A DNA stretch of 64,000 nucleotides from Archivesica marissinica. Lineage: Eukaryota > Mollusca > Bivalvia > Venerida > Vesicomyidae. The stretch lies in contig CM026391.1 of the NCBI GenBank assembly GCA_014843695.1, forward strand, positions 18,428,871 to 18,492,870, in the 5' to 3' direction. Positions 1 through 55,966 of this stretch are shown piece by piece; the stretch's first letter is position 1, and each line of letters opens with the position of its first letter. Under the pieces are notes generated by a model, which saw nothing but the letters and a program-made list of their open reading frames with translations, did not search any database and had not been told where the DNA came from. Position numbers and translations under genes: made by a program.

Positions 1-240
1 ACATATACAATCTGGGGCATCAGAGGGCACACTTGTAACAACTACGGTACCTGGTTCACACAATAGAAATATAAACAGTACATATACAATCTGGGGCATC
101 AGAGGGCACACTTGTAACAACTACGGTACCTGGTTCACACAATAGAACTATAAACAGTACATATACAATCTGGGGCATCAGAGGGCACACTTGTAACAAT
201 TACGGTACCTGGTTCACACAATAGAACTATAAACAGTATA
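1..240. repeat. Minisatellite, about 78-bp unit, 3 copies
   Basis: Three near-identical copies start at 1, 79 and 158. The first may be cut by the window edge. It lies on the 3' side of LARS1 exon 9, so it is intronic for that gene. Confidence 0.95.
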
Positions 241-399
241 TATATATAATCATTACAACATACAAAATTCAGGCTGCCTGTCCCTTAGGGCCGGGTATTT
301 TACCTGGCTATTCAAGCGCGAACCACCGGCTACTTGATCCCAAACAAGAGGGCCATGATGGCCCTGTATCGCTCACCTGACTCATATTTTACCCGGGGT

Positions 400-2106: not shown

Positions 2107-2814
2107 AAGGATGACTACTCACCTGTCCCACTAGCTCAACCACAACATTCACCTTGCCGTCGACCACAACATCCACCTTGCCATCGGTCCTAGAGAAGCC
2201 CTGGCAACTAGATTGATGTTGGAAGGATGGCTACTCACCTGTCCCACTAGCTCAACCACAACATTCACCTTGCCATCGGTCCTAGAGAAGCCCTGGCAAC
2301 TAGATTGATGTTGGAAGGATGGCTACTCACCTGTCCCACTAGCTCAACCACAACATTCACCTTGCCATCGCTCCTAGAGAAGCCCTGGCAACTAGATCGA
2401 AGTTGGAAGGATGGCTACTCACCTGTCCCACTAGCTCAGCCACAACATCCACCTTGCCGTCGGTCCTAGAGTAGCCCTGGCAACTAGATTGATGTTGGAA
2501 GGATGGCTACTCACCTGTCCCACTAGCTCAGCCACAACATTCACCTTGCCATCGGTCCTAGAGAAGCCCTGGCAACTAGATCGATGTTGGAAGGATGGCT
2601 ACTCACCTGTCCCACTAGCTCAGCCACAACATCCACCTTGCCGTCGGTCCTAGAGAAGCCCTGGCAACTAGATCGATGTTGGAAGGATGGCTACTCACGT
2701 GTCCCACTAGCTCAGCCACAACATCCACCTTGCCATCGACCACAACATCCACCTTGCCATCGGTCCTAGAGAAGCCCTGGCAACTAGATTGATGTTGAAA
2801 GGATGGCTACTCAC
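2107..2814 (-). repeat. Exon 8/donor minisatellite, 92-bp unit, 8 donor copies including the real one
   Basis: Read on the minus strand, each unit holds about the last 60 nt of LARS1 exon 8, the donor ACAG|GTGAGT and roughly 27 nt of intron. Donor copies lie near 2119, 2235, 2327, 2419, 2511, 2603, 2695 and the authentic 2814. Spacing is 92 bp except for the first and last intervals (116 bp), where a 24-bp piece encoding DGKVDVVV is duplicated inside the unit. The copy near 2695 has lost the last exonic G (CAC|GTGAGT). Confidence 0.93.
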
Positions 2815-3040
2815 CTGTCCCACTAGCTCAACCACAACATCCACCTTGCCATCGTTCCTAGAGAAGCCCTGGTAACTCATGTTCAATGCAGCCCTCCTGG
2901 TGCTGATGAACACTTCCCCATTCGCTAATTCACACGCAACATATTTCATCTCTGGCTGTATCCAACAGTTTGTCTGTCCGTACATCGTCTCTGGTCGTAG
3001 AGTGGCTGCTACGAGGAATACGTCTTTCTGTTCTAGTGAT
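2815..3040 (-). CDS. LARS1: LARS1 exon 8 (CP1 editing domain, TLRPET motif)
   Basis: The exon encodes about 75 residues, predicted 280-354. They include [17 protein letters not shown], the threonine-rich TLRPET element of the CP1 editing pocket that recognises and hydrolyses mischarged tRNA-Leu. By my count the two threonines fall near residues 292 and 297, as in other animal enzymes. The acceptor is CTGCAG|A at 3042-3041, and the first base completes the AG|A arginine codon split with exon 7. The donor is ACAG|GTGAGT at 2814-2813. The C-terminal 20 residues ([20 protein letters not shown]) are the part amplified in the adjoining 92-bp array. Phase and length (1+225 nt) agree with both neighbours. 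Confidence 0.95.
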
Positions 3041-5743: not shown

Positions 5744-5749
5744 CTGAAA

Positions 5750-8700: not shown

Positions 8701-9190
8701 TACAGATATAGTACATACAGATATAGTGCATACAGTACATACATATATAGTACATACAGATATAGTACATACACATATAGTACATACAGATATAGTACAT
8801 ACAGATATAGTACATACAGTACATACATATATAGTACATACAGATATAGTACATACAGATATAGTGCATACAGTACATACAGTACATACAGATATAGTAC
8901 ATACAGATATAGTACATACAGATATAGTACATACATATATAGTACATACAGATATAGTACATACATATATAGTACATACAGATATAGTACATACAGTACA
9001 TACAGATATAGTACATACAGATATAGTACATACAGATATAGTACATACATATATAGTGCATACAGTACATACATATATAGTACATACAGATATAGTACAT
9101 ACACATATAGTACATACGCATATAGTACATACACATATAGTACATACACATATAGTACATACACATATAGTACATACACATATAGTACAT
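5750..9190. repeat. 3.4-kb minisatellite, 15-bp unit with 9-bp truncated units
   Basis: The units are mainly tacatacagatatag, tacatacatatatag and tgcatacagatatag, interspersed with 9-bp tacatacag units. A rare cataaatatat variant occurs at about 7577 and again at about 8121 inside matching flanks, which shows an internal segmental duplication of about 544 bp. All unit lengths are multiples of three and lack stops in several frames, giving very long but meaningless open frames (up to 1,167 codons). The array fills almost all of LARS1 intron 6. Confidence 0.98.
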
Positions 9191-9407
9191 ACGTTTCTCG
9201 GCTAGACATATATCTAGCAGTTGCCATTACTAAACTTGAGAGAAATTGTGTATTTCATTCAAAAATAAACATCTTTGTGGCATTTTCGAAGACACAATAT
9301 ATTATGGTCTGTTACGAGCCTCGTCGAGGCATAGTTCTTGACTGATGTATGGGTACATATATTTATGGTAACCATAGACCGAGCAATATGTGATCAATTT
9401 AACTAAC

Positions 9408-10984: not shown

Positions 10985-11267
10985 GGAGTCAGGTCTACAT
11001 ATACAGTGTTGTTTTAGACGATTTCAAGACTATTTAGCCTCCATCAATATTACACAATTTTGTTACTTGTATAGTCTAGAGAGTTAATTACATGTTCAGT
11101 TGATTAGAACTATGGATTAATAACATAACTGTCTATGGATAACAGGCCTCTATGACCACACATGTAGGCACTCGGCTGTAACACATAAAATGATAAAACA
11201 CTTTGTTTGCTGATTTCCATCAGATAATAGGACTCATTGTACTATGTAGCACCTGTTTTATAACTTC

Positions 11268-12180
11268 CGGTCAAGTGTACATACCTTGAGATCTGACCTG
11301 TTTAATAGCGTCCGATCCAGTGTACATACCTTGAGATCTGACCTGTTTTATAATGTCCGGTCCTGTGTACATACCTTGAGATCTGACCTGTTTAATAGCG
11401 TCCGATCCAGTGTACATACCTTGAGATCTGACCTGTTTTATAACGTCCGATCCAGTGTACATACCTTGAGATCTGACCTGTTTTATAACGCCAGGCCCAG
11501 TGTATGTATGTATGTTCCATTAATGTCTAACCCCTTGCGGGGACGTAGACATGTTTTTCCTGGGCAAGCTTAACCAACCTAAGTGGTTAACCAGTACTAA
11601 GCAATGTGTGTGAGGTGCCTTGCTCAATGACACTACATATGTGGCCTGACCGAGTATCGAACCCGGGACGATATATTCCAGATCCGACGCTCTACCACTG
11701 GACCACGGATGTCACACATACATACATACCTTGAGATCAGACCTGTTTTATAACTTCCAGTCCAGTGTACATACCTTGAGATCTGACCTGTTTTATAATG
11801 TCCGGTCCTGTGTACATACCTTGAGATCTGACCTATTTTATAACGTCCAGTCCAGGGTACATACCTTGAGATCTGACCTGTTTTATAACGTCCAGTCCAG
11901 TGTACATACCTTGAGATCTGACCTGTTTTATAACGTCCAGTCCAGTGTACATACCTTGAGATCTGACCTGTTTTATAATGTCCGGTCCTGTGTACATACC
12001 TTGAGATTTGACCTATTTTATAACGTCCAGTCCAGCGTACAAAACTGTACATACCTTGAGATCTGACCTGTTTTATAACGTCCGATCCAGTGTACATACC
12101 TTGAGATCTGACCTGTTTTATAATGTCCGGTCCAGTTTACCTTGAGATCTGACCTGTTTTATAACTTCCGGTTCAGAGTA
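11268..12180 (-). repeat. Exon 5/donor minisatellite, 45-bp unit, about 15 copies, interrupted by a SINE
   Basis: On the minus strand every unit contains CTCAAG|GTATGTAC, identical to the authentic exon 5 donor at 12186/12185. The exonic part reads CAGATCTCAAG. The real exon reads GCAGATCT, then GAAAAGAATGGGG, then CTCAAG, so the unit looks like the exon end with a 15-nt deletion across a CT microhomology. The array runs from the donor into intron 5. A SINE splits it at about 11507-11726. Confidence 0.92.
11507..11726 (-). mobile_element. tRNA-derived SINE, family B, inserted in the exon 5 donor array
   Basis: On the minus strand it reads ATCCGTGGTCCAGTGGTAGA (A box), CCCGGGTTCGATACTCGG (B box), a body with GAGCAAGGCACCTCACAC and GTACTGGTTAACCACTTAGG, and a CATA-rich tail. 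CATACATACAT-type sequence occurs at both ends, which may be a target duplication, tail repeats or both. A fragment of the same body (gagcaagacacgtcacgcac) appears near 26830. Confidence 0.8.
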
Positions 12181-12185
12181 CATAC

Positions 12186-12347
12186 CTTGAGCCCCATTCT
12201 TTTCAGATCTGCTTTACAGTTTGGTGGGAAGTAGTTCAGCCATTGTTGGGGGTCTGCAAACTCTCGTATCTCTTCATCACTAAGACCCAGCGATGACATA
12301 ATCAGCCACTGATACTTTAGATTTCCCGTCTTAGCCTTCACTTTACT
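12186..12347 (-). CDS. LARS1: LARS1 exon 5
   Basis: This exon encodes 54 residues (predicted 144-197), including [25 protein letters not shown] and [18 protein letters not shown]. It matches the [17 protein letters not shown] and [16 protein letters not shown] block of cytosolic leucyl-tRNA synthetase. The acceptor is TTTTAG|AGT at 12349-12348 and the donor CTCAAG|GTATGT at 12185-12184. It is phase 0 at both ends. The donor is the first of about 16 identical donors in tandem. Use of a later one would add KVCTLNRKL and then an in-frame stop. Confidence 0.95.
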
Positions 12348-22225: not shown

Positions 22226-22579
22226 TACAATGTTAGTTATAAAGAATCGAATGGAATACCAATGTTGAGATATGATGTAAGTATAAAGAATCGTTGGTAA
22301 GGAAGACAATCGCTTGATTCTAATAACACATTGTACATATTGGCTTCATTTGAGCCGGGCTCAAGGCAGTCTTCCCGAAATCCGCAGAACTGCCTGACAT
22401 ATCAGACAAAAAATCCTTCGGTCAGACAAAATATATTGAAAGTTTAAGTGCATTTTAATCATTTGTCTGACCGGTGTCAGACAAACTCTGGCAAAGTTTC
22501 GTGAAGACTGTCAAGGGCATCCATTTCTTACCATACTTCTTCGACGATTGACTCTGCAGCATCGAGCTGCAATAATCAG

Positions 22580-23193
22580 AGTCAGGCTTTGGGGCATCCA
22601 GTTCTTACCTTGTTTCCTTGGAGTCAGGCTCTGGGGCATCCAGTTCTTACCTTGCTTCCTTGGAGTCAGGCTCTGGGGCATCCAGTTCTTACCTTGGAGT
22701 CAGGCTCTGGGGCACCCAGTTCTTACCTTGCCTCCTTGGAGTCAGGCTCTGGGGGCATCCAGTTCTTACCTTGCTTCCTTGGAGTCTGGCTCTGGGGACA
22801 TCCAGTTATTACCTTGTTTCCTTGGAGTCAGTCTCTGGGGGCACCCAGTTCTTACCTTGCTTCCTTGGAGTCAGGCTCTGGGGCATCCAGTTCTTACCTT
22901 GGATTCAGGCTCTGGGGCATCCAGTTCTTACCTTGCTTCCTTGGAGTCAGGCTCTGTGGCACCCAGTTCTTACCTTGGAGTCAGGCTCTGGGGCATCCAG
23001 TTCTTACCTTGGAGTCCGGCTCTGGGGCATCCAGTTCTTACCTTGCATCCTTGGATTCAGGCTCTGTGGCATCCAGTTCTTACCTTGGAGTCAGGCTCTG
23101 GGGCATCCAGTTCTTACCTTGGAGTCAGGCTCTGGGGCATCCAGTTCTTACCTTGCATCCTTGGATTCAGGCTCTGTGGCATCCAGTTCTTAC
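22580..23193 (-). repeat. Exon 1/donor minisatellite, 42- and 34-bp units, 16 donor copies including the real one
   Basis: On the minus strand the long unit reads GATGCCCCAGAGCCTGACTC, then CAAGGAAGCAAG|GTAAGAACTG, i.e. the last 32 nt of LARS1 exon 1 (DAPEPDSKEA), the donor and 10 nt of intron. The short unit lacks one AAGGAAGC-like step, so the donor is CCAAG|GTAAGAAC. I count 16 donor copies from about 22606 to the authentic one at 23193. Variants include tggattcagg and ggacatcc. Confidence 0.95.
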
Positions 23194-23321
23194 CTTGCTT
23201 CCTTGGAGTCAGGCTCTGGGGCATCCATCTCAAATAATTTCTCATCCTCCCATTTTTGTTGCATCCGCTGTTCTATTGACAACAGTTCTGTCAGCTTGGC
23301 TGTACCTTTACGCTGGGCCAT
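23194..23321 (-). CDS. LARS1: LARS1 first coding exon (start codon at 23321)
   Basis: The exon encodes MAQRKGTAKLTELLSIEQRM, then QQKWEDEKLFEMDAPEPDSK and EA, plus two bases of an arginine codon. It matches the N-terminus of animal cytosolic leucyl-tRNA synthetase (MAERKGTAK..., QQKW). An acceptor TTTGCAG at 23330-23329 lies 7 nt upstream of the ATG, so the 5' UTR probably starts in an undetected upstream exon. The donor is GCAAG|GTAAGA at 23193-23192, the exon-proximal member of a 16-copy tandem donor array. Reading on past this donor meets TAA at once (AGG TAA). Confidence 0.95.
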
Positions 23322-23920: not shown

Positions 23921-24120
23921 AGAATATTTCAATTTGTTTTGAAAATTTCTCAAGCGGCGCAGTTCGCGTTGAAACGAGCGTTCTGATTGGATTATGATTA
24001 TTCTTCATATAAAAAACAAACATCTTGTTACATTCTAATAATCCAATCAGAACGCTCATTTCTACGCTCGTTTCAATGCGAATTGCGCCGCTTTAAAAAT
24101 GTTCAAAACAAATTGAAAAA
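23921..24120. repeat. Large imperfect inverted repeat (foldback), arms about 75-85 bp
   Basis: The left arm (about 23921-23998) and the right arm (about 24036-24120) are reverse complements. Shared pieces are CAATTTGTTTTGAA, AGCGGCGCA, TTGAAACGAGCG and TTCTGATTGGATTAT, around a spacer of about 40 bp. The right arm has an extra TAGAAATGAGCG step. It is a possible foldback or MITE and directly precedes the hypothetical ORF. Confidence 0.8.
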
Positions 24121-24673
24121 TCTACATGGGGACGCCTATGAAGTCAAAGAGATTCATCGAGAAGTAGAGGTAAAGGACAATGGTGAAGGACACACAGTAG
24201 ATACTGCAAAGGAAGAAACAGTATTAGTAGATTCTGAGCTCAACTCAGATTATACATGTTATATTGAGGATCGTAAACCAGATGAGGTTTTAGTTGAAAT
24301 AGCTGATGTACCAGCAGATGCAGTAGCTGACGTACCAGCAGATGCAATAGCTGAGGTACCAGCAGAAGCAATAGCTGATATTACAGGAGGTTTAGATATA
24401 TCGGCAGATACAGGAGGTGCAGAATCTACAGTAGACAACAGCCAACGGATTACAGGAACTAAGGCAAAGAGGAAACTGCCTGCCAATCCTCAGAGCCTTT
24501 CAGACAGAACCAAGAAAGCACCAGAGAGGTATAAGGAATACCAAATGTATAGCATGGTAACCAGGCCATACAATTCCAGATTCCAGGCATTGGAAGCGAT
24601 GATGGCCTCTGGAGTACTGGACTGCATAGATGAGGAATTGGCACGCAAAGTTGTCAATGCACTTATGAAGTGA
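23987..24673 (+). CDS. Hypothetical acidic protein or terminal exon, start uncertain
   Basis: I do not recognise this 228-codon frame. From about 24116 it is acidic and has a short repeat, DVPADA(V/I)A(D/E)VPAEAIAD. A basic patch follows (TKAKRKLP, DRTKKAPERYKEYQ), then a compact C-terminus (MVTRPYNSRFQALEAMMA...DEELARKVVNALMK). The first 45 codons overlap the inverted repeat and are probably not native, so the true start may be an upstream exon. An AATAAA at 24690-24695 sits 17 nt after the stop. The balanced amino-acid use and positioned polyadenylation signal favour a real 3' exon or retro-inserted gene. It could also be transposon cargo, given the hairpin. It lies between LARS1 and NUDCD2. 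Confidence 0.4.
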   Translation: MDYDYSSYKKQTSCYILIIQSERSFLRSFQCELRRFKNVQNKLKNLHGDAYEVKEIHREVEVKDNGEGHTVDTAKEETVLVDSELNSDYTCYIEDRKPDEVLVEIADVPADAVADVPADAIAEVPAEAIADITGGLDISADTGGAESTVDNSQRITGTKAKRKLPANPQSLSDRTKKAPERYKEYQMYSMVTRPYNSRFQALEAMMASGVLDCIDEELARKVVNALMK

Positions 24674-29406: not shown

Positions 29407-29592
29407 ATGTCCAACTTTGATGAGACAAGTGGTGTATCGGCTTGTAGCACAGAATGGGGCCGCTGGTACCAGACAATGGAGGAGGTGTACATTGAGGTGA
29501 TTCTAGATGAGGGAACCGGCAGTAAACAGGTCAAGGTCAACATATCACCTAAGCGATTTAAAGTGGCAGTGAAAGGGGAAACTTTATTTGAG
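29407..29592 (+). CDS. NUDCD2: NUDCD2 exon 1 (N-terminus and first half of CS domain)
   Basis: The exon encodes 62 residues beginning MSNFDETSGVSACSTEWGRW, then YQTMEEVYIEVILDEGTGSK and QVKVNISPKRFKVAVKGETL, ending in FE. It matches NudC domain-containing protein 2 (the CGTPWGQWYQTLEEVFIEV type N-terminus of animal proteins), a small CS/p23-fold co-chaperone linked to Hsp90 and dynein regulators. An acceptor TTTTTGTAG at 29403-29404 lies 2 nt before the ATG, so a 5' UTR exon is expected upstream. The donor is TTTGAG|GTAAGT at 29593-29594, phase 0. A 28-30-bp array starts about 30 nt into the intron. Confidence 0.95.
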
Positions 29593-32759: not shown

Positions 32760-32808
32760 GGAGAGCTTCCATCAGCAGTGAAAGTTGATGACTCTGTGTG
32801 GACAATAG
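32760..32808 (+). CDS. NUDCD2: NUDCD2 exon 2 (CS domain)
   Basis: The exon encodes GELPSAVKVDDSVWTI plus the first base of a glutamate codon. VDDSVWTIED (completed by exon 3) is the conserved xxxxWTLED strand of the CS domain in NudC-family proteins. The acceptor is TTATTTCAG|GG at 32758-32759 and the donor ACAATAG|GTACAA at 32809-32810. Length 49 nt leaves phase 1, which is satisfied only by an exon starting with AG, as exon 3 does. Confidence 0.93.
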
Positions 32809-32854: not shown

Positions 32855-33035
32855 CAGGGATCGCAGGTTCGATCCCCCGTCTGACCCTAATAATATTAAC
32901 AGTCTTTCAGATGGGACGTTAAGATGAGACTCTGGAATGGGTCTCTGTCTGTATCATTGCACTATCCTCCAAAATCTAAAATAACTAATTTCTTCAGGGG
33001 GCGTCGCTCATATGGGCAACCGGTAGCGACGATAA
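32855..33035 (+). mobile_element. SINE, family C, lacking the A-box head
   Basis: Begins at tccagggatcgcaggttcga (B box) and continues through CAGTCTTTCAGATGGGACGT to GGCGTCGCTCATATGGGCAA and GACGATAAAA. A central piece (TAAACCGAGGTCTCG) is missing. NUDCD2 intron 2. Confidence 0.8.
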
Positions 33036-33132
33036 AACAGCACAATACAGGGGTATAACAACGAGTACTGCATTTTACATTTAGAGCTAGCACACCGGGT
33101 ACACTGAATACAGTTGAATTAACACTATCATA

Positions 33133-33370
33133 CTCTAGTTTATACAAATTTATTTTAGCTCGATTGCGAAACAACTTCTTACAACTTATATTAATCACTC
33201 TCGAGACCTCATTCCTGATGGAATCCATCGCCACGAGGGAGAGAGAAGAGGCAATGTGGAATTTAAATGCCTTGCCTAAGGGCACAATCGTAACGGCTCC
33301 AGCGGGGCTCGAACTCCAGACCTTTCGCACCTGAAGCGAACGCGCATCCACTGCGCTATCACGACTTCCA
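33133..33370 (-). mobile_element. SINE, family D, near full length
   Basis: On the minus strand: GGAAGTCGTGATAGCGCAGT, B box GAGTTCGAGCCCCG, GGCATTTAAATTCCACATTG, TGGCGATGGATTCCATCAGG, GTGATTAATATAAGTTGTAA and AAATAAATTTGTATAAACTA. It ends exactly where the 26-bp array of intron 2 begins. Confidence 0.85.
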
Positions 33371-38666: not shown

Positions 38667-38859
38667 TTCGTAAGACTGTTTCTTAGACCACTCCTGTCAC
38701 ATAGATACCTGGCCTCGAGGTTCTGATTGGTTAAACTGAGAATAATCTCAGAATCAACCAATCATATTACTGGAGCTCGAGTTTGAGATTTGAGAAAAGT
38801 TTTATAACCTCCGACCCTGGCAGTTTATTGCTGCTATTTTCTGGAATAATCTGATATAA

Positions 38860-41793
38860 AGCTTGTTGTTTCACAGAGGACAGGACTTTCTACCTATCTG
38901 TTTATGTAAAGCTTGTTGTTTCACAGAGGACAGGAAGTTTCTACCTATCTGTTTATGTAAAGTTTGTTGTTTTACAGAGGACAGGAAGTTTCTACCTATC
39001 TGTTTATGTAAAGTTTGTTGTTTCACAGAGGACAGGAAGTTTCTACGTATCTGTTTATGTAAAGTTTGTTGTTTCACAGAGGACAGGAAGTTTCTATGTA
39101 TCTGTTTATGTAAAGCTTGTTGTTTTACAGAGGACAGGAAGTTTCTATGTATCTGTTTATGTAAAGTTTGTTGTTGTTTCACATAGGACAGGACTTTCTA
39201 CATATCTGTGTATGTAAAGCTTGTTGTTTTACAGAGGACAGGACTTTCTACCTATCAGTTTATGTAAAGCTTGTTGTTTTACAGAGGACAGGAAGTTTCT
39301 ATGTATCTGTTTATGTAAAGTTTGTTGTTTCACAGAGGACAGGAAGTTTCTGCCTATCTGTTTATGTAAAGCTTGTTGTTTTACAGAGGACAGGAAGTTT
39401 CTATGTATCTGTTTATGTAAAGTTTGTTGTTTCACAGAGGACAGGAAGTTTCTACTTATCTGTTTATGTAAAGCTTGTTGTTTTACAGAGGACAGGAAGT
39501 TTCTATGTATCTGTTTATGTAAAGTTTGTTGTTGTTTCACATAGGACAGGACTTTCTACCTATCTGTTTATGTAACGTTTGTTGTTTCACAGAGGACAGG
39601 AAGTTTCTGCCTATCTGTTTATGTAAAGCTTGTTGTTTCACAGAGGACAGGAAGTTTCTGCATATCTGTTTATGTAAAGCTTGTTGTTTTACAGAGGACA
39701 GGAAGTTTCTATGTATCTGTTTATGTAAAGTTTGTTGTTGTTTCACATAGGACAGGACTTTCTACATATCTGTGTATGTAAAGCTTGTTGTTTTACAGAG
39801 GACAGGACTTTCTACCTATCAGTTTATGTAAAGCTTGTTGTTTTACAGAGGACAGGAAGTTTCTATGTATCTGTTTATGTAAAGTTTGTTGTTTCACAGA
39901 GGACAGGAAGTTTCTGCCTATCTGTTTATGTAAAGCTTGTTGTTTTACAGAGGACAGGAAGTTTCTATGTATCTGTTTATGTAAAGTTTGTTGTTTCACA
40001 GAGGACAGGAAGTTTCTACTTATCTGTTTATGTAAAGCTTGTTGTTTCACAGAGGACAGGAAGTTTCTGCCTATCTGTTTATGTAAAGCTTGTTGTTTTA
40101 CAGAGGACAGGAAGTTTCTATGTATCTGTTTATGTAAAGTTTGTTGTTGTTTCACATAGGACAGGACTTTCTACCTATCTGTTTATGTAACGTTTGTTGT
40201 TTCACAGAGGACAGGAAGTTTCTGCCTATCTGTTTATGTAAAGCTTGTTGTTTCACAGAGGACAGGAAGTTTCTGCATATCTGTTTATGTAAAGCTTGTT
40301 GTTTTACAGAGGACAGGAAGTTTCTATGTATCTGTTTATGTAAAGTTTGTTGTTGTTTCACATAGGACAGGACTTTCTACATATCTGTGTATGTAAAGCT
40401 TGTTGTTTTACAGAGGACAGGACTTTCTACCTATCAGTTTATGTAAAGCTTGTTGTTTTACAGAGGACAGGAAGTTTCTATGTATCTGTTTATGTAAAGT
40501 TTGTTGTTTCACAGAGGACAGGAAGTTTCTACTTATCTGTTTATGTAAAGCTTGTTGTTTCACAGAGGACAGGAAGTTTCTATGTATCTGTTTATGTAAA
40601 GCTTGTTGTTTTACAGAGGACAGGAAGTTTCTATGTATCTGTTTATGTAAAGCTTGTTGTTTCACAGAGGACAGGAAGTTTCTATGTATCTGTTTATGTA
40701 AAGTTTGTTGTTGTTTCACATAGGACAGGACTTTCTACCTATCTGTTTATGTAACGTTTGTTGTTTCACAGAGGACAGGAAGTTTCTGCCTATCTGTTTA
40801 TGTAAAGCTTGTTGTTTCACAGAGGACAGGAAGTTTCTGCATATCTGTGTATGTAAAGCTTGTTGTTTTACAGAGGACAGGACTTTCTACCTATCAGTTT
40901 ATGTAAAGCTTGTTGTTTTACAGAGGACAGGAAGTTTCTATGTATCTGTTTATGTAAAGTTTGTTGTTTCACAGAGGACAGGAAGTTTCTGCCTATCTGT
41001 TTATGTAAAGCTTGTTGTTTTACAGAGGACAGGAAGTTTCTATGTATCTGTTTATGTAAAGTTTGTTGTTTCACAGAGGACAGGAAGTTTCTACTTATCT
41101 GTTTATGTAAAGCTTGTTGTTTCACAGAGGACAGGAAGTTTCTGCCTATCTGTTTATGTAAAGCTTGTTGTTTTACAGAGGACAGGAAGTTTCTATGTAT
41201 CTGTTTATGTAAAGTTTGTTGTTGTTTCACATAGGACAGGACTTTCTACCTATCTGTTTATGTAACGTTTGTTGTTTCACAGAGGACAGGAAGTTTCTGC
41301 CTATCTGTTTATGTAAAGCTTGTTGTTTCACAGAGGACAGGAAGTTTCTGCATATCTGTTTATGTAAAGCTTGTTGTTTTACAGAGGACAGGAAGTTTCT
41401 ATGTATCTGTTTATGTAAAGTTTGTTGTTGTTTCACATAGGACAGGACTTTCTACATATCTGTGTATGTAAAGCTTGTTGTTTTACAGAGGACAGGACTT
41501 TCTACCTATCAGTTTATGTAAAGCTTGTTGTTTTACAGAGGACAGGAAGTTTCTATGTATCTGTTTATGTAAAGTTTGTTGTTTCACAGAGGACAGGAAG
41601 TTTCTGCCTATCTGTTTATGTAAAGCTTGTTGTTTTACAGAGGACAGGAAGTTTCTATGTATCTGTTTATGTAAAGTTTGTTGTTTCACAGAGGACAGGA
41701 AGTTTCTACTTATCTGTTTATGTAAAGCTTGTTGTTTCACAGAGGACAGGAAGTTTCTGCCTATCTGTTTATGTAAAGCTTGTTGTTTCACAG
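38860..41793 (+). repeat. Exon 3/acceptor minisatellite, 51-bp unit, about 57 copies, with higher-order repeats
   Basis: Each unit is a copy of the NUDCD2 exon 3 acceptor: TTGTTGTTTCACAG|AGGACAGGAAG, then TTTCTACCTATCTGTTTATG and TAAAGC, i.e. polypyrimidine tract, AG and the first 36 nt of the exon. The authentic acceptor is the last copy (41792-41793). Variants include a +3 form with CACATAG, a -1 form (GGACTTT) and codon-level changes. A composite block starting with the +3 form recurs at about 39168, 39732, 40347 and 41422 (a partial one at 40860), showing recent higher-order amplification. The 51-bp length keeps one frame open as CFTEDRKFLPICLCKAC repeats over long stretches. Confidence 0.96.
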
Positions 41794-41945
41794 AGGACAG
41801 GAAGTTTCTACGTATCTGTTTATGTAAAGTGCTAACTACAGCTGACCAGTGCTGGAAGTCTCTACTGAAGGGCCAGTACCAGGCGGATGCACACACATTC
41901 GATGAGATGGAGAAGAAACTGACACTTCAGAGATACCAGTTTGAA
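41794..41945 (+). CDS. NUDCD2: NUDCD2 exon 3
   Basis: After completing the GAG codon from exon 2 the exon encodes DRKFLRICLCKVLTTADQCW, then KSLLKGQYQADAHTFDEMEK and KLTLQRYQFE. It matches the EDRKMVRIVLTKTKRDAANCW and RKLTLERFQKE segment of NUDCD2: the end of the CS domain plus the following helix. The acceptor is TTTCACAG at 41792-41793 and the donor TTTGAA|GTAAGA at 41946-41947. Length 152 nt (2+150). The first 36 nt are the part amplified in the upstream array. This real copy keeps CTACGTATC (Leu-Arg-Ile), which most array copies have lost to CCTATC or TGTATC. Confidence 0.94.
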
Positions 41946-41977: not shown

Positions 41978-42213
41978 TGTGGAAGTCATGATAGCGCAGT
42001 GGATGCTTGTCGCTTCAGGTGCGAAAGGTCCGGAGTTTGAGCTCCGCTGGAACTGTTACGATTGTGCCCTTTGGCAAGGCATTTAAATTCCACGTTGCCT
42101 CTTCTCTCTCCCTCATGGCGATGGATTCCATCAGGAATGAGGTCTCGAGAGTGATTAATATAAGTTGTAAGAACTTGTTTCGCAATCGAACTAAAATAAA
42201 TTTGTATAAACTA
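41978..42213 (+). mobile_element. SINE, family D, near full length
   Basis: TGGAAGTCATGATAGCGCAG (head), GTCCGGAGTTTGAGCTCCGC (B box), GGCATTTAAATTCCACGTTG, GGCGATGGATTCCATCAGGA, AGTGATTAATATAAGTTGTA and AAATAAATTTGTATAAACTA. It lies only 32 nt past the exon 3 donor. Confidence 0.87.
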
Positions 42214-42507
42214 TTTAAATTACTGTTCGATAATCATAAAGATTTATCCTGCAGCATTCTAGGCCAATCTGTTTGAAAGATATAATAGAGTACACACACA
42301 CTATTTCAAACTAATGTCTTTCTGTTGCCTATCTGGAGTTTGCTTCATCAAATGACGTCTGATTTATGATACACCAGTAACTCTAGCCCCCCTGAGGTCT
42401 GGGAATGGGTATATAACTTGTTTTGTTAGCTGACCGGGTAAGGTTTCCCCTCAAAATAGTGGTCCTATTAGCTAATAGTCACCAAACCAGTAGGACTTAA
42501 CTAATTC

Positions 42508-44275: not shown

Positions 44276-44544
44276 AGCACCGAGATATGGATTAATCTCC
44301 TATATTTGTGTTCTTCGATAATATTTTATTTTTTATAAATGTCTGTTTACTAAAGTTAGTATTATGATTGATTGTTAATCGATTTACATTTTTATTTTCT
44401 GCTTGAAGAAAAATAGACAATTTGGTCTTTTATAAAAACATTATGTTATTTTGCTATGCGACTACCTCACAGGGACCCCCATCATTATTAGTCGTCTAAT
44501 TTTCAGACTGAAGCTGCATACGAAGGTGCTCCATGAAGGTCCTA

Positions 44545-47500
44545 CTACAATACATCAACACCAAGTTACTTGTAGCCACATGCGGGCATGGATACCTTCC
44601 CCCGTACTACAATACATCAACGACACCAAGTTACTTGTACTTGTAGCCACATGCGAGCACAGATACCTTCCCCCATACTACAATACATCAACGACACCAA
44701 GTTACTTGTAGCCACATGCAGGCATGGATACCTTCCCCTGTACTACAATACATCAACAACACCAAGTTACTTGTAGCCACATGCGGGCTCAGATACCTTC
44801 CCCCGTACTACAATACATCAACGACACCAAGTTACTTGTAGCCACATGCGGGCTCAGATACCTACCCCCGTACTACAATACATCAACGACACCAAGTTAC
44901 TTGTAGCCACATGCGGGCTCAGATACCTTCCCCCGTACTACAATACATCAACGACACCAAGTTACTTGTAGCCACATGCAGGCTCAGATACCTTCCCCCG
45001 TACTACAATACATCAATGACACCAAGTTACTTGTACTTGTAGCCACATGCGGGCTCAGATACCTTCCCCCGTACTACAATACATCGATGACACCAAGTTA
45101 CTTGTACTTGTAGCCACATGCGGGCATGGATACCTTCCCCCGTACTACAATACATCAACGACACCAAGTTACTTGTACTTGTAGCCACATGCGGGCACAG
45201 ATACCTTCCCCCATACTACAATACATCAACGACACCAAGTTACTTGTAGCCACATGCGGGCTCAGATACCTTCCCCCGTACTACAATACATCAACGACAC
45301 CAAGTTACTTGTAGCCACATGCGGGCTCAGATACCTTCCCCCGTACTACAATACATCAACGACACCAAGTTACTTGTAGCCACATGCGGGCTCAGATACC
45401 TTCCCCCGTACTACAATACATCAACGACACCAAGTTACTTGTAGCCACATGCGGGCTCAGATACCTTCCCCCGTACTACAATACATCAACGACACCAAGT
45501 TACTTGTAGCCACATGCGGGCTCAGATACCTTCCCCCGTACTACAATACATCAACGACACCAAGTTACTTGTAGCCACATGCGGGCTCAGATACCTTCCC
45601 CCGTACTACAATACATCAACGACACCAAGTTACTTGTAGCCACATGCGGGCTCAGATACCTTCCCCCGTACTACAATACATCAACGACACCAAGTTACTT
45701 GTAGCCACATGCGGGCTCAGATACCTTCCCCCGTACTACAATACATCAACGACACCAAGTTACTTGTAGCCACATGCGGGCTCAGATACCTTCCCCCGTA
45801 CTACAATACATCAACGACACCAAGTTACTTGTACTTGTAGCCACATGCGGGCATGGATACCTTCCCCCGTACTACAATACATCAACGACACCAAGTTACT
45901 TGTAGCCACATGCGGGCACAGATACCTTCCCCCGTACTACAATACATCAACGACACCAAGTTACTTGTATTGTAGCCACATGCGGGCACAGATACCTTCC
46001 CCCGTACTACAATACATCAACGACACCAAGTTACTTGTTTTTGTAGCCACATGCGGGCATGGATACCTTCCCCTGTACTACAATACATCAACAACACCAA
46101 GTTACTTGTAGCCACATGCGGGCACAGATACCTTCCCCCGTACTACAATACATCAACGACACCAAGTTACTTGTAGCCACATGCGGGCTCAGATACCTTC
46201 CCCCGTACTACAATACATCAACAACACCAAGTTACTTGTAGCCACATGCGGGCTCAGATACCTTCCCGCGTACTACAATACATCAACGACACCAAGTTAC
46301 TTGTAGCCACATACGGGCTCAGATACCTTCCCCCGTACTACAATACATCGATGACACCAAGTTACTTGTACTTGTAGCCACATGCGGGCTCAGATACCTT
46401 CCCCCGTACTACAATACATCGATGACACCAAGTTACTTGTACTTGTAGCCACATGCGGGCTCAGATACCTTCCCCTGTACTACAATACATCAACGACACC
46501 AAGTTACGTGTAGCCACATGCAGGCTCAGATACCTTCCCCTGTACTACAATACATCAACAACACCAAGTTACTTGTAGCCACATGCAGGCTCAGATACCT
46601 TCCCCCGTACTACAATACATCAACGACACCAAGTTACTTGTAGCCACATGCGGGCATGGATACCTTCCCCCGTACTACAATACATCAACGACACCAAGTT
46701 ACTTGTACTTGTAGCCACATGCGGGCTCAGATACCTTCCCCCGTACTACAATACATCGACGACACCAAGTTACTTGTAGCCACATGCGGGCATGGATACC
46801 TTCCCCCGTACTACAATACATCAACGACACCAAGTTACTTGTACTTGTAGCCACATGCGGGCTCAGATACCTTCCCCCGTACTACAATACATCAACGACA
46901 CCAAGTTACTTGTAGCCACATGCGGGCATGGATACCTTCCCCCGTACTACAATACATCAACGACACCAAGTTACTTGTAGCCACATGCGGGCATGGATAC
47001 CTTCCCCTGTACTACAATACATCAACAACACCAAGTTACTTGTAGCCACATGCGGGCATGGATACCTTCCCCCGTACTACAATACATCAACGACACCAAG
47101 TTACTTGTAGCCACATGCGGGCATGGATACCTTCCCCCGTACTACAATACATCAACGACACCAAGTTACTTGTAGCCACATGCGGGCTCAGATACCTTCC
47201 CCCGTACTACAATACATCAACGACACCAAGTTACTTGTACTTGTAGCCACATGCGGGCATGGATACCTTCCCCTGTACTACAATACATCAACAACACCAA
47301 GTTACTTGTAGCCACATGCGGGCACAGATACCTTCCCCCGTACTACAATACATCAACGACACCAAGTTACTTGTTCTTGTAGCCACATGCGGGCATGGAT
47401 ACCTTCCCCTGTACTACAATACATCAACAACACCAAGTTACTTGTAGCCACATGCGGGCACAGATACCTTCCCCCGTACTACAATACATCAACGACACCA

Positions 47501-50500
47501 AGTTACTTGTAGCCACATGCGGGCTCAGATACCTTCCCCCGTACTACAATACATCAACGACACCAAGTTACTTGTAGCCACATGCGGGCTCAGATACCTT
47601 CCCCCGTACTACAATACATCAACAACACCAAGTTACTTGTAGTCACATGCGGGCTCAGATACCTTCCCCCGTACTACAATACATCAACGACACCAAGTTA
47701 CTTGTAGCCACATGCGGGCTCAGATACCTTCCCCCGTATTACATTACATCAACGACACCAAGTTACTTGTACTTGTAGCCACATGCGGGCTCAGATACCT
47801 TCCCCCGTACTACAATACATCAACGACACCAAGTTACTTGTATTTGTAGCCACATGCAGGCACAGATACCTTCCCCCGTACTACAATACATCAACGACAC
47901 CAAGTTACTTGTACTTGTAGCCACATGCGGGCATGGATACCTTCCCCTGTACTACAATACATCGACGACACCAAGTTACTTGTACTTGTAGCCACATGCG
48001 GGCATGGATACCTTCCCCCCGTACTACAATACATCAACGACACCAAGTTACTTGTAGCCACATGCGGGCATGGATACCTTCCCCTGTACTACAATACATC
48101 AACAACACCAAGTTACTTGTAGCCACATGCGGGCTCAGATACCTTCCCCCGTACTACAATACATCAACGACACCAAGTTACTTGTAGCCACATGCGGGCT
48201 CAGATACCTCCCCCTACTACAATACATCAACGACACCAAGTTACTTGTAGCCACATGCGGGCTCAGATACCTTCCCCTGTACTACAATACATCAACAACA
48301 CCAAGTTACTTGTAGCCACATGCGGGCTCAGATACCTTCCCGCGTACTACAATACATCAACGACACCAAGTTACTTGTAGCCACATACGGGCTCAGATAC
48401 CTTCCCCCGTACTACAATACATCGATGACACCAAGTTACTTGTACTTGTAGCCACATGCGGGCTCAGATACCTTCCCCCGTACTACAATACATCGATGAC
48501 ACCAAGTTACTTGTACTTGTAGCCACATGCGGGCTCAGATACCTTCCCCGTACTACAATACATCAACGACACCAAGTTACTTGTACTTGTAGCCACATGC
48601 GGGCTCAGATACCTTCCCCTGTACTACAATACATCAACGACACCAAGTTACGTGTAGCCACATGCAGGCTCAGATACCTTCCCCTGTACTACAATACATC
48701 AACAACACCAAGTTACTTGTAGCCACATGCAGGCTCAGATACCTTCCCCCGTACTACAATACATCGACGACACCAAGTTACTTGTAGCCACATGCGGGCA
48801 TGGATACCTTCCCCCGTACTACAATACATCAACGACACCAAGTTACTTGTACTTGTAGCCACATGCGGGCTCAGATACCTTCCCCCGTACTACAATACAT
48901 CAACGACACCAAGTTACTTGTAGCCACATGCGGGCATGGATACCTTCCCCCGTACTACAATACATCAACGACACCAAGTTACTTGTACTTGTAGCCACAT
49001 GCGGGCTCAGATACCTTCCCCCGTACTACAATACATCGATGACACCAAGTTACTTGTAGCCACATGCGGGCACAGATACCTTCCCCCGTACTACAATACA
49101 TCAACGACACCAAGTTACTTGTACTTGTAGCCACATGCGGGCATGGATACCTTCCCCTGTACTACAATACATCGACGACACCAAGTTACTTGTACTTGTA
49201 GCCACATGCGGGCATGGATACCTTCCCCCCGTACTACAATACATCAACGACACCAAGTTACTTGTAGCCACATGCGGGCATGGATACCTTCCCCTGTACT
49301 ACAATACATCAACAACACCAAGTTACTTGTAGCCACATGCGGGCATGGATACCTTCCCCCGTACTACAATACATCAACGACACCAAGTTACTTGTAGCCA
49401 CATGCGGGCATGGATACCTTCCCCCGTACTACAATACATCAACGACACCAAGTTACTTGTAGCCACATGCGGGCTCAGATACCTTCCCCCGTACTACAAT
49501 ACATCAACGACACCAAGTTACTTGTACTTGTAGCCACATGCGGGCATGGATACCTTCCCCTGTACTACAATACATCAACAACACCAAGTTACTTGTAGCC
49601 ACATGCGGGCACAGATACCTTCCCCCGTACTACAATACATCAACGACACCAAGTTACTTGTTCTTGTAGCCACATGCGGGCATGGATACCTTCCCCTGTA
49701 CTACAATACATCAACAACACCAAGTTACTTGTAGCCACATGCGGGCACAGATACCTTCCCCCGTACTACAATACATCAACGACACCAAGTTACTTGTAGC
49801 CACATGCGGGCTCAGATACCTTCCCCCGTACTACAATACATCAACACACCAAGTTACTTGTAGCACATGCGGGCTCAGATACCTTCCCCCGTACTACAAT
49901 ACATCAACACACCAAGTTACTTGTAGCACATGCGGGCTGATACCTTCCCCCGTATACATACATCAACGACACCAAGTTACTTGTAGCCACATGCGGGCTC
50001 AGATACCTTCCCCCGTACTACATACATCAACGACACCAAGTTACTTGTAGCCACATGCGGCCAGATACCTTCCCCCGTACTACAATACATCAACGACACC
50101 AAGTTACTTGTACTTGTAGCCACATGCGGGCATGGATACCTTCCCCTGTACTACAATACATCACGACACCAAGTTACTTGTAGCCACATGCGGGCATGGA
50201 TACCTTCCCCGTACTACAATACATCAACGACACCAGTTACTTGTACTTGTAGCCACATGCGGGCAGATACCTTCCCCCGTACTACAATACATCAACGACA
50301 CCAAGTTACTTGTAGCCACATGCGGGCTCAGATACCTTCCCCCGTACTACAATACATCAACAACACCAAGTTACTTGTAGTCACATGCGGGCTCAGATAC
50401 CTTCCCCCGTACTACAATACATCAACGACACCAAGTTACTTGTAGCCACATGCGGGCTCAGATACCTTCCCCCGTATTACATTACATCAACGACACCAAG

Positions 50501-53500
50501 TTACTTGTACTTGTAGCCACATGCGGGCTCAGATACCTTCCCCCGTACTACAATACATCAACGACACCAAGTTACTTGTATTTGTAGCCACATGCAGGCA
50601 CAGATACCTTCCCCCGTACTACAATACATCAACGACACCAAGTTACTTGTACTTGTAGCCACATGCGGGCATGGATACCTTCCCCTGTACTACAATACAT
50701 CGACGACACCAAGTTACTTGTACTTGTAGCCACATGCGGGCATGGATACCTTCCCCCGTACTACAATACATCAACGACACCAAGTTACTTGTAGCCACAT
50801 GCGGGCATGGATACCTTCCCCTGTACTACAATACATCAACAACACCAAGTTACTTGTAGCCACATGCGGGCATGGATACCTTCCCCCGTACTACAATACA
50901 TCAACGACACCAAGTTACTTGTAGCCACATGCGGGCATGGATACCTTCCCCCGTACTACAATACATCAACGACACCAAGTTACTTGTACTTGTAGCCACA
51001 TGCGGGCATGGATACCTTCCCCCGTACTACAATACATCAACAACACCAAGTTACTTGTAGCCACATGCGGGCACAGATACCTTCCCCCGTACTACAATAC
51101 ATCAACGACACCAAGTTACTTGTAGCCACATGCGGGCTCAGATACCTTCCCCCGTACTACAATACATCGACGACACCAAGTTACTTGTACTTGTAGCCAC
51201 ATGCGGGCTCAGATACCTTCCCCCGTACTACAATACATCGACGACACCAAGTTACTTGTAGCCACATGCGGGCTCAGATACCTTCCCCCGTACTACAATA
51301 CATCAACAACACCAAGTTACTTGTAGCCACATGCGGGCTCAGATACCTTCCCCCGTACTACAATACATCAACGACACCAAGTTACTTGTACTTGTAGCCA
51401 CATGCGGGCTCAGATACCTTCCCCCGTACTACAATACATCGATGACACCAAGTTACTTGTACTTGTAGCCACATGCGGGCTCAGATACCTTCCCCGTACT
51501 ACAATACATCAACGACACCAAGTTACTTGTACTTGTAGCCACATGCGGGCTCAGATACCTTCCCCTGTACTACAATACATCAACGACACCAAGTTACGTG
51601 TAGCCACATGCAGGCTCAGATACCTTCCCCTGTACTACAATACATCAACAACACCAAGTTACTTGTAGCCACATGCGGGCTCAGATACCTTCCCCCGTAC
51701 TACAATACATCGACGACACCAAGTTACTTGTAGCCACATGCGGGCATGGATACCTTCCCCCGTACTACAATACATCAACGACACCAAGTTACTTGTACTT
51801 GTAGCCACATGCGGGCTCAGATACCTTCCCCCGTACTACAATACATCAACGACACCAAGTTACTTGTAGCCACATGCGGGCATGGATACCTTCCCCCGTA
51901 CTACAATACATCAAGTCCGCCTCCGTGGTCGAGTGGTTAAGGTCGCTGACTTGTATACCACTGTAACCTATCATCACTGATGGTCACGGGTTCGAGCCCC
52001 GCTCAGACCGTGTCTCATTTATATGAAAAAGTTGGCAGTTTCTTACGGAGGTTGGCGCACCCAAGTACTGGTTAACCGCTGGAGCCTGCCCAGGAAAGGT
52101 GTTGTTAGGTAAACTGCCCGCCGGCGATATAGCCCAAAATGGTGCTGATGCAGGCGTAAAACCCGAAATATAAAAAAATAAAAAAACAATACATCAACGA
52201 CACCAAGTTACTTGTACTTGTAGCCACATGCGGGCTCAGATACCTTCCCCCGTACTACAATACATCGATGACACCAAGTTACTTGTAGCCACATGCGGGC
52301 ACAGATACCTTCCCCCGTACTACAATACATCAACGACACCAAGTTACTTGTACTTGTAGCCACATGCGGGCATGGATACCTTCCCCTGTACTACAATACA
52401 TCGACGACACCAAGTTACTTGTACTTGTAGCCACATGCGGGCATGGATACCTTCCCCCCGTACTACAATACATCAACGACACCAAGTTACTTGTAGCCAC
52501 ATGCGGGCATGGATACCTTCCCCTGTACTACAATACATCAACAACACCAAGTTACTTGTAGCCACATGCGGGCATGGATACCTTCCCCCGTACTACAATA
52601 CATCAACGACACCAAGTTACTTGTAGCCACATGCGGGCATGGATACCTTCCCCCGTACTACAATACATCAACGACACCAAGTTACTTGTAGCCACATGCG
52701 GGCTCAGATACCTTCCCCCGTACTACAATACATCAACGACACCAAGTTACTTGTACTTGTAGCCACATGCGGGCATGGATACCTTCCCCTGTACTACAAT
52801 ACATCAACAACACCAAGTTACTTGTAGCCACATGCGGGCACAGATACCTTCCCCCGTACTACAATACATCAACGACACCAAGTTACTTGTTTTTGTAGCC
52901 ACATGCGGGCATGGATACCTTCCCCTGTACTACAATACATCAACAACACCAAGTTACTTGTAGCCACATGCGGGCACAGATACCTTCCCCCGTACTACAA
53001 TACATCAACGACACCAAGTTACTTGTAGCCACATGCGGGCTCAGATACCTTCCCCCGTACTACAATACATCAACAACACCAAGTTACTTGTAGTCACATG
53101 CGGGCTCAGATACCTTCCCCCGTACTACAATACATCAACGACACCAAGTTACTTGTAGCCACATGCGGGCTCAGATACCTTCCCCCGTATTACATTACAT
53201 CAACGACACCAAGTTACTTGTAGCCACATGCGGGCTCAGATACCTTCCCCCGTACTACAATACATCAACGACACCAAGTTACTTGTATTTGTAGCCACAT
53301 GCAGGCTCAGATACCTTCCCCTGTACTACAATACATCAACAACACCAAGTTACTTGTAGCCACATGCGGGCTCAGATACCTTCCCCCGTACTACAATACA
53401 TCAACGACACCAAGTTACTTGTAGCCACATGCAGGCTCAGATACCTTCCCCCGTACTACAATACATCGATGACACCAAGTTACTTGTACTTGTAGCCACA

Positions 53501-55448
53501 TGCGGGCTCAGATACCTTCCCCCGTACTACAATACATCGATGACACCAAGTTACTTGTACTTGTAGCCACATGCGGGCTCAGATACCTTCCCCGTACTAC
53601 AATACATCAACGACACCAAGTTACTTGTACTTGTAGCCACATGCGGGCTCAGATACCTTCCCCCGTACTACAATACATCAACGACACCAAGTTACTTGTA
53701 GCCACATGCGGGCTCAGATACCTTCCCCCGTACTACAATACATCAACAACACCAAGTTACTTGTAGCCACATGCGGGCTCAGATACCTTCCCCCGTACTA
53801 CAATACATCAACGACACCAAGTTACTTGTACTTGTAGCCACATGAGGGCTCAGATACCTTCCCCCGTACTACAATACATCAACGACACCAAGTTACTTGT
53901 AGCCACATGCGGGCATGGATACCTTCCCCCGTACTACAATACATCAATGACACTAAGTTACTTGTAGCCACATGCGGGCTCAGATACCTTCCCCCGTACT
54001 ACAATACATCAACAACACCAAGTTACTTGTAGCCACATGCGGGCATGGATACCTTCCCCCGTACTACAATACATCAACGACACCAAGTTACTTGTAGCCA
54101 CATGCGGGCTCAGATACCTTCCCCCGTACTACAATACATCAACAACACCAAGTTACTTGTAGCCACATGCGGGCTCAGATACCTTCCCCCGTACTACAAT
54201 ACATCAACAACACCAAGTTACTTGTACTTGTAGCCACATGCGGGCACAGATACCTTCCACCGTACTACAATACATCAACGACACCAAGTTACTTGTAGCC
54301 ACATGCGGGCATGGATACCTTCCCCCGTACTACAATACATCAACGACACTAAGTTACTTGTAGCCACATGCGGGCACAGATACCTTCCACTGTACTACAA
54401 TACATCAACGACACCAAGTTACTTGTAGCCACATGCGGACACAGATACCTTCCCCCGTACTACAATACATCAACGACACCAAGTTACTTGTAGCCACATG
54501 CGGGCACAGATACCTTCCCCCGTACTACAATACATCAATGACACCAAGTTACTTGTAGCCACATGTGGGCACAGATACCTTCCACTGTACTACAATACAT
54601 CAACGACACCAAGTTACTTGTAGCCACATGCGGGCACAGATACCTTCCCCCGTACTACAATACATCAACGACACCAAGTTACTTGTAGCCACATGCGGGC
54701 ACAGATACCTTCCCCCGTACTACAATACATCAACGACACCAAGTTACTTGTAGCCACATGCGGGCACAGATACCTTCCCCCGTACTACAATACATCAACG
54801 ACACCAAGTTACTTGTAGCCACATGCGGGCACAGATACCTTCCACTGTACTACAATACATCAACGACACCAAGTTACTTGTAGCCACATGCGGGCACAGA
54901 TACCTTCCCCCGTACTACAATACATCAACGACACCAAGTTACTTGTAGCCACATGCGGGCATGGATACCTTCCCCCGTACTACAATACATCAACGACACC
55001 AAGTTACTTGTACTTGTAGCCACATGCGGGCACAGATACCTTCCCCCGTACTACAATACATCAACGACACTAAGTTACTTGTAGCCACATGCGGGCACAG
55101 ATACCTTCCACTGTACTACAATACATCAACGACACCAAGTTACTTTTAGCCACATGCGGGCACAGATACCTTCCCCCGTACTACAATACATCAACAACAC
55201 CAAGTTACTTGTAGCCACATGCGGGCACAGATACCTTCCCCCGTACTACAATACATCAACGACACCAAGTTACTTGTAGCCACATGCGAGCACAGATACC
55301 TTCCACCGTACTACAATACATCAACGACACCAAGTTACTTGTAGCCACATGCGGGCTCAGATACCTTCCCCTGTACTACAATACAGCAACGACACCAAGT
55401 TACTTGTAGCCACATGCGGGCTCAGATACCTTCCCCCGTACTACAAGA
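44545..55448. repeat. 10.9-kb minisatellite, 65/71-bp units, about 160 copies, with kilobase-scale internal duplications
   Basis: The 65-bp unit is gggctcagataccttccccc plus gtactacaatacatcaacga, caccaagttacttgtagcca and catgc. The 71-bp form has an extra ttgtac. Main variants are ctcag/catgg/cacag, ccg/ctg and caacga/cgatga/caacaa. Rare variant strings recur at 47925, 49135 and 52364, and at 48456, 51402 and 53500, so multi-kilobase blocks were duplicated. A family A SINE interrupts it at 51915. It fills most of NUDCD2 intron 3. Confidence 0.98.
51915..52186 (+). mobile_element. Young family A SINE inserted in the 65-bp array, 11-bp target duplication
   Basis: The head reads CTCCGTGGTCGAGTGGTTAA (A box) and CACGGGTTCGAGCCCCG (B box), tRNA-Ser/Leu-like. 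The body includes TTATATGAAAAAGTTGGCAG, TACTGGTTAACCGCTGGAGC and ATGGTGCTGATGCAGGCG. The tail is AAATATAAAAAAATAAAAAA. CAATACATCAA flanks it exactly at 51904-51914 and 52187-52197. Confidence 0.95.
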
Positions 55449-55888
55449 CTTCAGTAACACTAAATTACATGTATCCGGTAGTCGCATACCGTGGCACAGT
55501 TGCCTTCCATGACACAGTAATCACAGTTGTCATAGTGAAATGAATTTGATAACTGTTGTCATGGAAACTGATATTGTGTTGCCTACGAAACTGCTGTACG
55601 TGTGTCATGTTAATGAAATCTTGTCTTCAATTGTTATAGAAGGCACAACTCGCCATACGGTGTCTTTGTATCAGAGCTCTAGTCAAATGGTTCACAAGAT
55701 TTTTCAAAAATTGGACTTCTAATGACAAAGAGGCGACTGTTTTGAAGTGCTGGTGTCAGTTTACTCACTGTTGTATTCTTTAATGATCAAAAATGGACAA
55801 ATGCAGAATTATATACATGTTAAGACATTTTTGAAAATGAAAAACAAATTCTGAAGAAATTGGACGCTTGTCTTTGTTCTGCTTGCAG
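55449..55888. other. Intronic stretch before NUDCD2 exon 4
   Basis: Single-copy sequence between the 10.9-kb array and the last acceptor. No other element seen. The acceptor tract is TTGTTCTGCTTGCAG. Confidence 0.45.
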
Positions 55889-55966
55889 AATCCTGGGATG
55901 GACTTCAGTAATGCCGAGATAACTGGAAACTACCACAGTGGAGGACCACAGCTTCCCGGCACGTAG
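55889..55966 (+). CDS. NUDCD2: NUDCD2 exon 4 (last coding exon)
   Basis: The exon encodes NPGMDFSNAEITGNYHSGGP then QLPGT and a TAG stop. It matches the conserved C-terminal tail NPGFDFSGAEISGNYTKGGPDF of NUDCD2. The acceptor is TGCTTGCAG at 55887-55888, and phase 0 fits exon 3. With exons 1-3 this gives a 154-residue protein, close to the 157 residues of the human protein. The extreme C-terminus (QLPGT) differs from vertebrate proteins. Confidence 0.95.
   Translation, partial: NPGMDFSNAEITGNYHSGGPQLPGT

Follow-up and report, generated by a model that had tools for sequence, protein, structure and literature searches.

An extreme mirage at the intron 2/exon 3 junction of NUDCD2 in the bivalve Archivesica marissinica, most likely neutral and probably with its exon-side acceptor in use

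Results

NUDCD2 and LARS1 lie in a repeat-rich window

The window analyzed here is a 64,000-nt stretch of the A. marissinica genome (GCA_014843695.1, contig CM026391.1, positions 18,428,871 to 18,492,870 of the forward strand), and it contains the neighboring genes NUDCD2 and LARS1 (Table 1). The four NUDCD2 exons joined encode a protein of 154 aa without an internal stop. Among 39 homologues, this protein is 78% identical over 84% of the query to NUDCD2 of Mercenaria mercenaria and 67% identical to that of Mya arenaria, and the top three homologues reach 79, 75, and 72%. Exon 3 matches NudC domain-containing protein 2 (PDB 2rh0) with an E value of 1.7e-10. The lone G ending exon 2 and the AG opening exon 3 form GAG, a conserved Glu codon; this split codon and the continuous 154-aa protein therefore fix the start of exon 3 at 41794, exactly where it had been placed in the original prediction. 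LARS1 is encoded on the reverse strand by ten exons, which run from 23328 to the left edge of the window and give one continuous protein, and its residues 1–397 match human cytosolic leucyl-tRNA ligase (E 5.9e-193).

After merging, 37 tandem repeat arrays with unit lengths of 15–92 bp occupy 61.4% of the window. Most of NUDCD2 intron 3 is taken up by a 10.9-kb array with a 65-bp unit (44543–55453), and a 3.4-kb array with a 15-bp unit (5749–9192) stops 5 bases before a LARS1 exon, beside its AG. The open frame at 23987–24670 on the forward strand includes 3.4 copies of a 24-bp repeat (24298–24379), which would code for VPADAIA-like repeats. Similar translated stretches (MAMDSIRNEVSRVINIS) are found on opposite strands in NUDCD2 intron 3 (41986–42233) and intron 2 (32965–33331) and probably represent a dispersed repeat.

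Table 1. Features of NUDCD2, LARS1, and their junction-spanning arrays, in window coordinates
Feature	Position	Strand	Basis or remark
NUDCD2 exon 1, coding part	29407..29592	+	joined reading frame
NUDCD2 exon 2, 49 nt, last base G	32760..32808	+	split codon with exon 3
58-unit tandem array across the NUDCD2 intron 2/exon 3 junction	38857..41829	+	final 5 bases are the shared TAAAG
Unit 1, intron-side edge, CTGAT at −23	38857..38906	+	unit cutting, motif scan
Unit 4, sole decoy with the CGT Arg codon	39009..39059	+	codon count
Unit 53 acceptor to real acceptor, in-frame exon extensions of 51–255 nt	41539..41793	+	exon 2 joined to each acceptor
Unit 58 with real acceptor, AG at 41792–41793	41774..41824	+	unit cutting, gene model
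NUDCD2 exon 3, 152 nt, donor GAA/GTAAGA	41794..41945	+	PDB 2rh0 match, frame
NUDCD2 exon 4, coding part with stop	55889..55966	+	joined reading frame
Array across donor of first coding LARS1 exon, junction 23193/23194	22579..23227	−	repeat listing, gene model
Array across LARS1 donor, junction 12185/12186, 6 exonic nt in repeat	11251..12191	−	repeat units read
Array across LARS1 donor, junction 2814/2815	2139..2854	−	40-mer scan, repeat listing
LARS1 acceptor and exon start array, 3 acceptor copies	1..244	−	real copy beyond left window edge

Fifty-seven decoy copies precede the acceptor of NUDCD2 exon 3

Tandem Repeats Finder reported the array across the NUDCD2 intron 2/exon 3 junction with a period of 51, 58.1 copies, and 89% matches. 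Cutting at the repeat start yielded 58 head-to-tail units of 17 sequence types, with lengths of 51 bp (n = 44), 50 bp (n = 6), or 53 bp (n = 8). The unit is made up of 20 nt of the intron end, namely TAAAG, the polypyrimidine tract, and AG, followed by 31 nt of the exon 3 start. Exonic and intronic sequences with a splice site are contained in one unit, as in the repeats called mirages in amphioxus. The left edge of the array is plain intron DNA, and the right edge is located inside exon 3, where unit 58 continues into the remaining exon.

Unit 58 is the sole unit joined to the rest of exon 3, and the other 57 copies precede it as decoys. The proposal of 57 tandem copies in front of the true acceptor, with the true one as the last copy, is borne out by the gene model, in which unit 58 joins exon 3 to give the 154-aa protein. 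As in mirages, the authentic site is the exon-joined copy, an assignment made by the gene model only. The anatomy originally proposed was right in its 51-bp repeat of polypyrimidine tract, AG, and exon start, but not in its 36 exonic nt, because the TAAAG common to both ends had been counted. This pentamer is present at both unit ends, in the intron as GATATAAAGC and in the exon as TATGTAAAGT, which suggests that the duplication was bounded by a 5-bp microhomology.

The array has drifted and its interior is homogenized

The CGT Arg codon is limited to the real copy and unit 4, matching the two copies (the real one and one near 39043) to which the original prediction had assigned it. The other units have CCT (23), TGT (20), CAT (8), or CTT (5) at this position; TGT and CAT would be the expected outcome of CpG decay of CGT. 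The further claim that the array is free of coding constraint is supported by a 1-bp deletion in 14 of the 58 units, TAG in 8 of 58, and the absence of a full frame for 52 of the 58 acceptors. In the 51-bp units (n = 44), variation is confined to 3 of the 20 intronic columns and 4 of the 31 exonic ones. The junction AG is retained in all 58 units.

An exact twin is present for 51 of the 58 units, and those without a twin are units 1–5, 39, and 58. As in mirages, the edge units (1–5 and 58) are unique and stand outside homogenization, and so does the internal unit 39. The longest exact repeat within the array is 766 bp at an offset of 1075. Recent block duplication together with old edges fits unequal exchange.

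Local sequence does not single out the real acceptor

The 23-nt sequence of the real acceptor is identical in 11 of the 57 decoys, so that 12 of the 58 acceptors carry it overall, and 10 of these 11 decoys also match unit 58 over 20 intronic and 15 exonic nt. Local acceptor sequence therefore cannot decide which site is used, and a special acceptor in unit 58 was rejected as a candidate on the same count. Branch-point-like motifs follow the consensus yTnAy. Such a motif is found at positions −17 to −42 of 53 of the 58 units; that of the real acceptor, TTTAT at −23, originates in exonic sequence of unit 57. As TTTAT at −23 is present in 44 units including unit 58, a special branch point in unit 58 was likewise rejected. 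CTGAT at −23 in unit 1 is probably the old branch point.

Folding of 41519–41945 gave a z score of −0.31 relative to shuffles, lending no support to an RNA structure that hides the decoys. Of four small pieces, unit 58 extended by 5 bases of its exon tail scored −2.00 (7 of 200 against shuffles), and the other three scored −0.61, −1.13, and +0.75. As the pieces differ in length, no weight is placed on the value of −2.00, although a structural role of unit 58 is conceivable.

The acceptors differ in the exon 3 that they would produce: 152 nt from unit 58, 203 nt from unit 57, 407 nt from unit 53, and 3069 nt from unit 1. When exon 2 was joined to each acceptor in turn, the full frame was retained for 6 of 58 (units 53–58) and lost for the rest, and the proteins encoded via units 53, 54, 55, 56, 57, and 58 were 239, 222, 205, 188, 171, and 154 aa, respectively. 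We infer that the acceptor of unit 58 is used because it alone gives an exon of ordinary size beside its donor.

In terms of coding potential, units 53–57 could possibly specify candidate isoforms of +17 to +85 aa. Mixed use of the acceptors of units 53–58 would generate a ladder in which the NUDCD2 isoforms carry between 0 and 5 inserts, each 17 aa long. The six acceptors are indeed all in frame, from 154 to 239 aa, the acceptor 23-mer of unit 57 equals that of unit 58, and a tandem array of splice sites in human UBC is reported to be spliced stochastically (PMC10809524). We nevertheless consider this ladder unlikely. The exon-3 start motif appeared twice in none of the 39 homologues, which represent other species and of which only 14 matched the strict pattern once. 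A database search with the extended frame returned five proteins, all of them known NUDCD2 matches, and the four that were aligned (P0004, P0001, P0002, and P0039) showed no second exon-3 start. Moreover, the insert would sit within the CS domain. The five decoys nearest exon 3 are open and in frame, but 8 of 53 runs of five consecutive decoys are just as open; the open stretch is thus no sign of selection, and selection for an in-frame array is unsupported.

Four further arrays span splice junctions of LARS1

The original prediction, confirmed as to the NUDCD2 array and partly supported in its interpretation, overlooked four further junction-spanning arrays in LARS1 as well as the earlier description of such repeats in amphioxus. 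NUDCD2 and LARS1 together harbor 28 arrays, five of which span a junction (two acceptors and three donors). A 40-mer scan was performed over 26 junctions of the two genes, one of them (the 5′ end of NUDCD2 exon 1) presumed. Extra copies were detected at 4 of the 26, with GT or AG kept in each, and none at the other 22. The donor at 12185, whose repeat includes just 6 exonic nt, was missed by the scan and was added from the repeat units. Another copy was also found for 2 of 99 exon-internal 40-mers. The donor cores in LARS1 are present in 15 (AAGGTAAGA), 15 (CTCAAGGTATGT), and 8 (GGGACA[CG]GTGAGTAG) copies including the real site, and the acceptor core at the left edge in 3 copies. The donor array at 11251–12191 is broken by a stretch that contains a GGTTCGA box-like motif and resembles a tRNA-derived SINE. 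For the NUDCD2 array and the three LARS1 arrays with their exon copy in the window, the site that keeps the protein was the exon-side copy in 4 of 4 cases, which is no test of a splicing rule because this outcome follows from the way the exon-side copy is defined.

The five junction-spanning arrays exceed random placement. With the 28 arrays placed inside the two genes, 1.4–1.9 spanning arrays were expected versus 5 seen (P(≥5) 0.0115–0.0345), and a rerun of this null with 6 nt required on each side gave P 0.0096; with all 37 arrays placed in the whole window, 1.1–1.5 were expected (P(≥5) 0.006–0.019). As judged by reading the units, four arrays passed a stricter overlap of 9 nt on each side, with P(≥4) 0.024, and three passed one of 15 nt, with P(≥3) 0.023. 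These values come from a post hoc test in one window, in which the presumed 5′ end of NUDCD2 exon 1 was entered about 1 base off, and they are a hint of a junction bias. Such an excess is not predicted by a purely neutral origin alone. Junctions might in this lineage be preferred birthplaces of minisatellites, where a junction-linked process, e.g. slippage coupled to transcription or splicing, would build the decoys and exon definition would rescue the gene, with some in-frame leak in NUDCD2 that would add 17 aa per unit to the leaked isoforms. We regard this combination as quite unlikely.

The copy number might also be an artefact of assembly, which we judge to be very unlikely. The exact 766-bp repeat is of the kind that would raise this suspicion, and one amphioxus mirage is reported to have been mis-assembled in the draft genome (PMC3087553). 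Against this stand the 17 unit types with their patterned order and unique edges, and the presence of such arrays at five different junctions. Unit variety and the five junctions argue that the array exists, but they do not vouch for exactly 58 units.

Discussion

The organization of the locus makes it highly probable that the NUDCD2 array is a neutral, junction-spanning minisatellite, i.e., a mirage, whose exon-side acceptor is used via exon definition. Slippage or microhomology repair would have tandemly duplicated a 51-bp segment that straddles the intron 2/exon 3 junction and is bounded by TAAAG, and the array would have grown to 58 units, with a recent internal block duplication that would account for the long exact repeats observed. 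Copies 1–57 would be intronic and free to drift, as reflected in their frameshifts, stops, and lost Arg codon, and the acceptor of unit 58 would be spliced. The decoys offer equivalent acceptors and branch-point-like motifs, but would produce exons of 203–3069 nt, five of them in frame. The choice would then be set by position and by the remaining exon 3, rather than by the acceptor, and no function would be required of the array.

A regulatory role, in which the decoy acceptors slow splicing or lead to NMD and thereby set NUDCD2 output, appears highly improbable: the frame is lost via most of the acceptors, as such a role might predict, but arrays are abundant within both genes and elsewhere in the window. 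Least probable of all is the birth of intron 2 itself by tandem duplication (the Rogers model) with the array as its remnant; it has been suggested that new introns can arise from mirages (PMC3087553) and some new Drosophila introns are explained by tandem duplication (PMC2891723), but the array is at the acceptor end only, the exon 2 donor region (32809) recurs nowhere else at 80% identity over 40 nt, so that donor and acceptor do not come from one unit, and in the homologue P0039 (from a 1352-bp contig) the residues on either side of exon 3 turn unrelated at the same two points, and the 46 residues before it contain no second exon-3 start in the one frame read. The flanks in P0039 hint that intron 2 may be older than the array.

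If the neutral mirage with exon definition is the right reading, the NUDCD2 locus provides a natural test of acceptor choice, in which the sites are set apart mainly by where they lie and by the remainder of exon 3. One RNA junction at unit 58 would show that local splice-site strength is not decisive here. It would also extend mirages from cephalochordates to molluscs and provide several donor and acceptor examples within a single genome.

Among known systems, the Caenorhabditis minisatellites tied to alternative splicing (PMC4039745) were set aside, since they are not described as junction repeats. Human UBC resembles NUDCD2 in that one gene carries a tandem array of splice sites; its repeats, however, are described as coding monomers with AGGT cores that are used both ways as dual-specific sites (PMC10809524). 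At the NUDCD2 repeat junction the sequence is CAG/AGG or TAG/GAC in place of the AGGT core, and AG/GT is found in some LARS1 arrays. In human segmental duplications, minisatellites at exon–intron boundaries can form new introns; these repeats have units of about 30 bp in 4 copies and are linked to new introns and alternative transcripts in recent paralogues (PMC2812944). NUDCD2, in contrast, carries a long array and looks like a housekeeping gene present in a single copy.

The closest counterparts are the amphioxus repeats across exon–intron boundaries for which the name mirages was introduced, in Adh3 and the globin genes BflGb6 and BflGb9; the Adh3 data and globin RT-PCR are said to suggest regular splicing despite the mirages (PMC3087553). 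TnC and PGBD5 were added in a further paper, which likewise reports normal splicing of amphioxus mirages (PMC3902484), and the Adh3 mirage has been cited as unstable. No mollusc mirage was recognized by title or the start of the abstract among the best-ranked 10–25 of up to 406 literature matches per search, in a collection with few subscription journals, and this supports novelty weakly. The bivalve host, and with it the phylum, the copy number, and the occurrence of five such arrays in two neighboring genes seem to be new.

The NUDCD2 and LARS1 arrays and the amphioxus mirages are alike in being minisatellite-like, in lying across exon–intron boundaries, and in involving both acceptors and donors, and edge units escape homogenization in the amphioxus mirages as in the NUDCD2 array (PMC3087553, PMC3902484). 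They differ in scale: the NUDCD2 array has 58 units of 51 bp, whereas 6 and 3 copies are described in two BflGb6 haplotypes, and the units are 150–160 bp in BflGb6 and 10–72 bp in Adh3 (PMC3087553). The host is a bivalve rather than amphioxus, and five junctions in two neighboring genes are involved. The NUDCD2 array is an extreme mirage, and judging from its sequence it is most likely neutral, with the exon-side acceptor in use.
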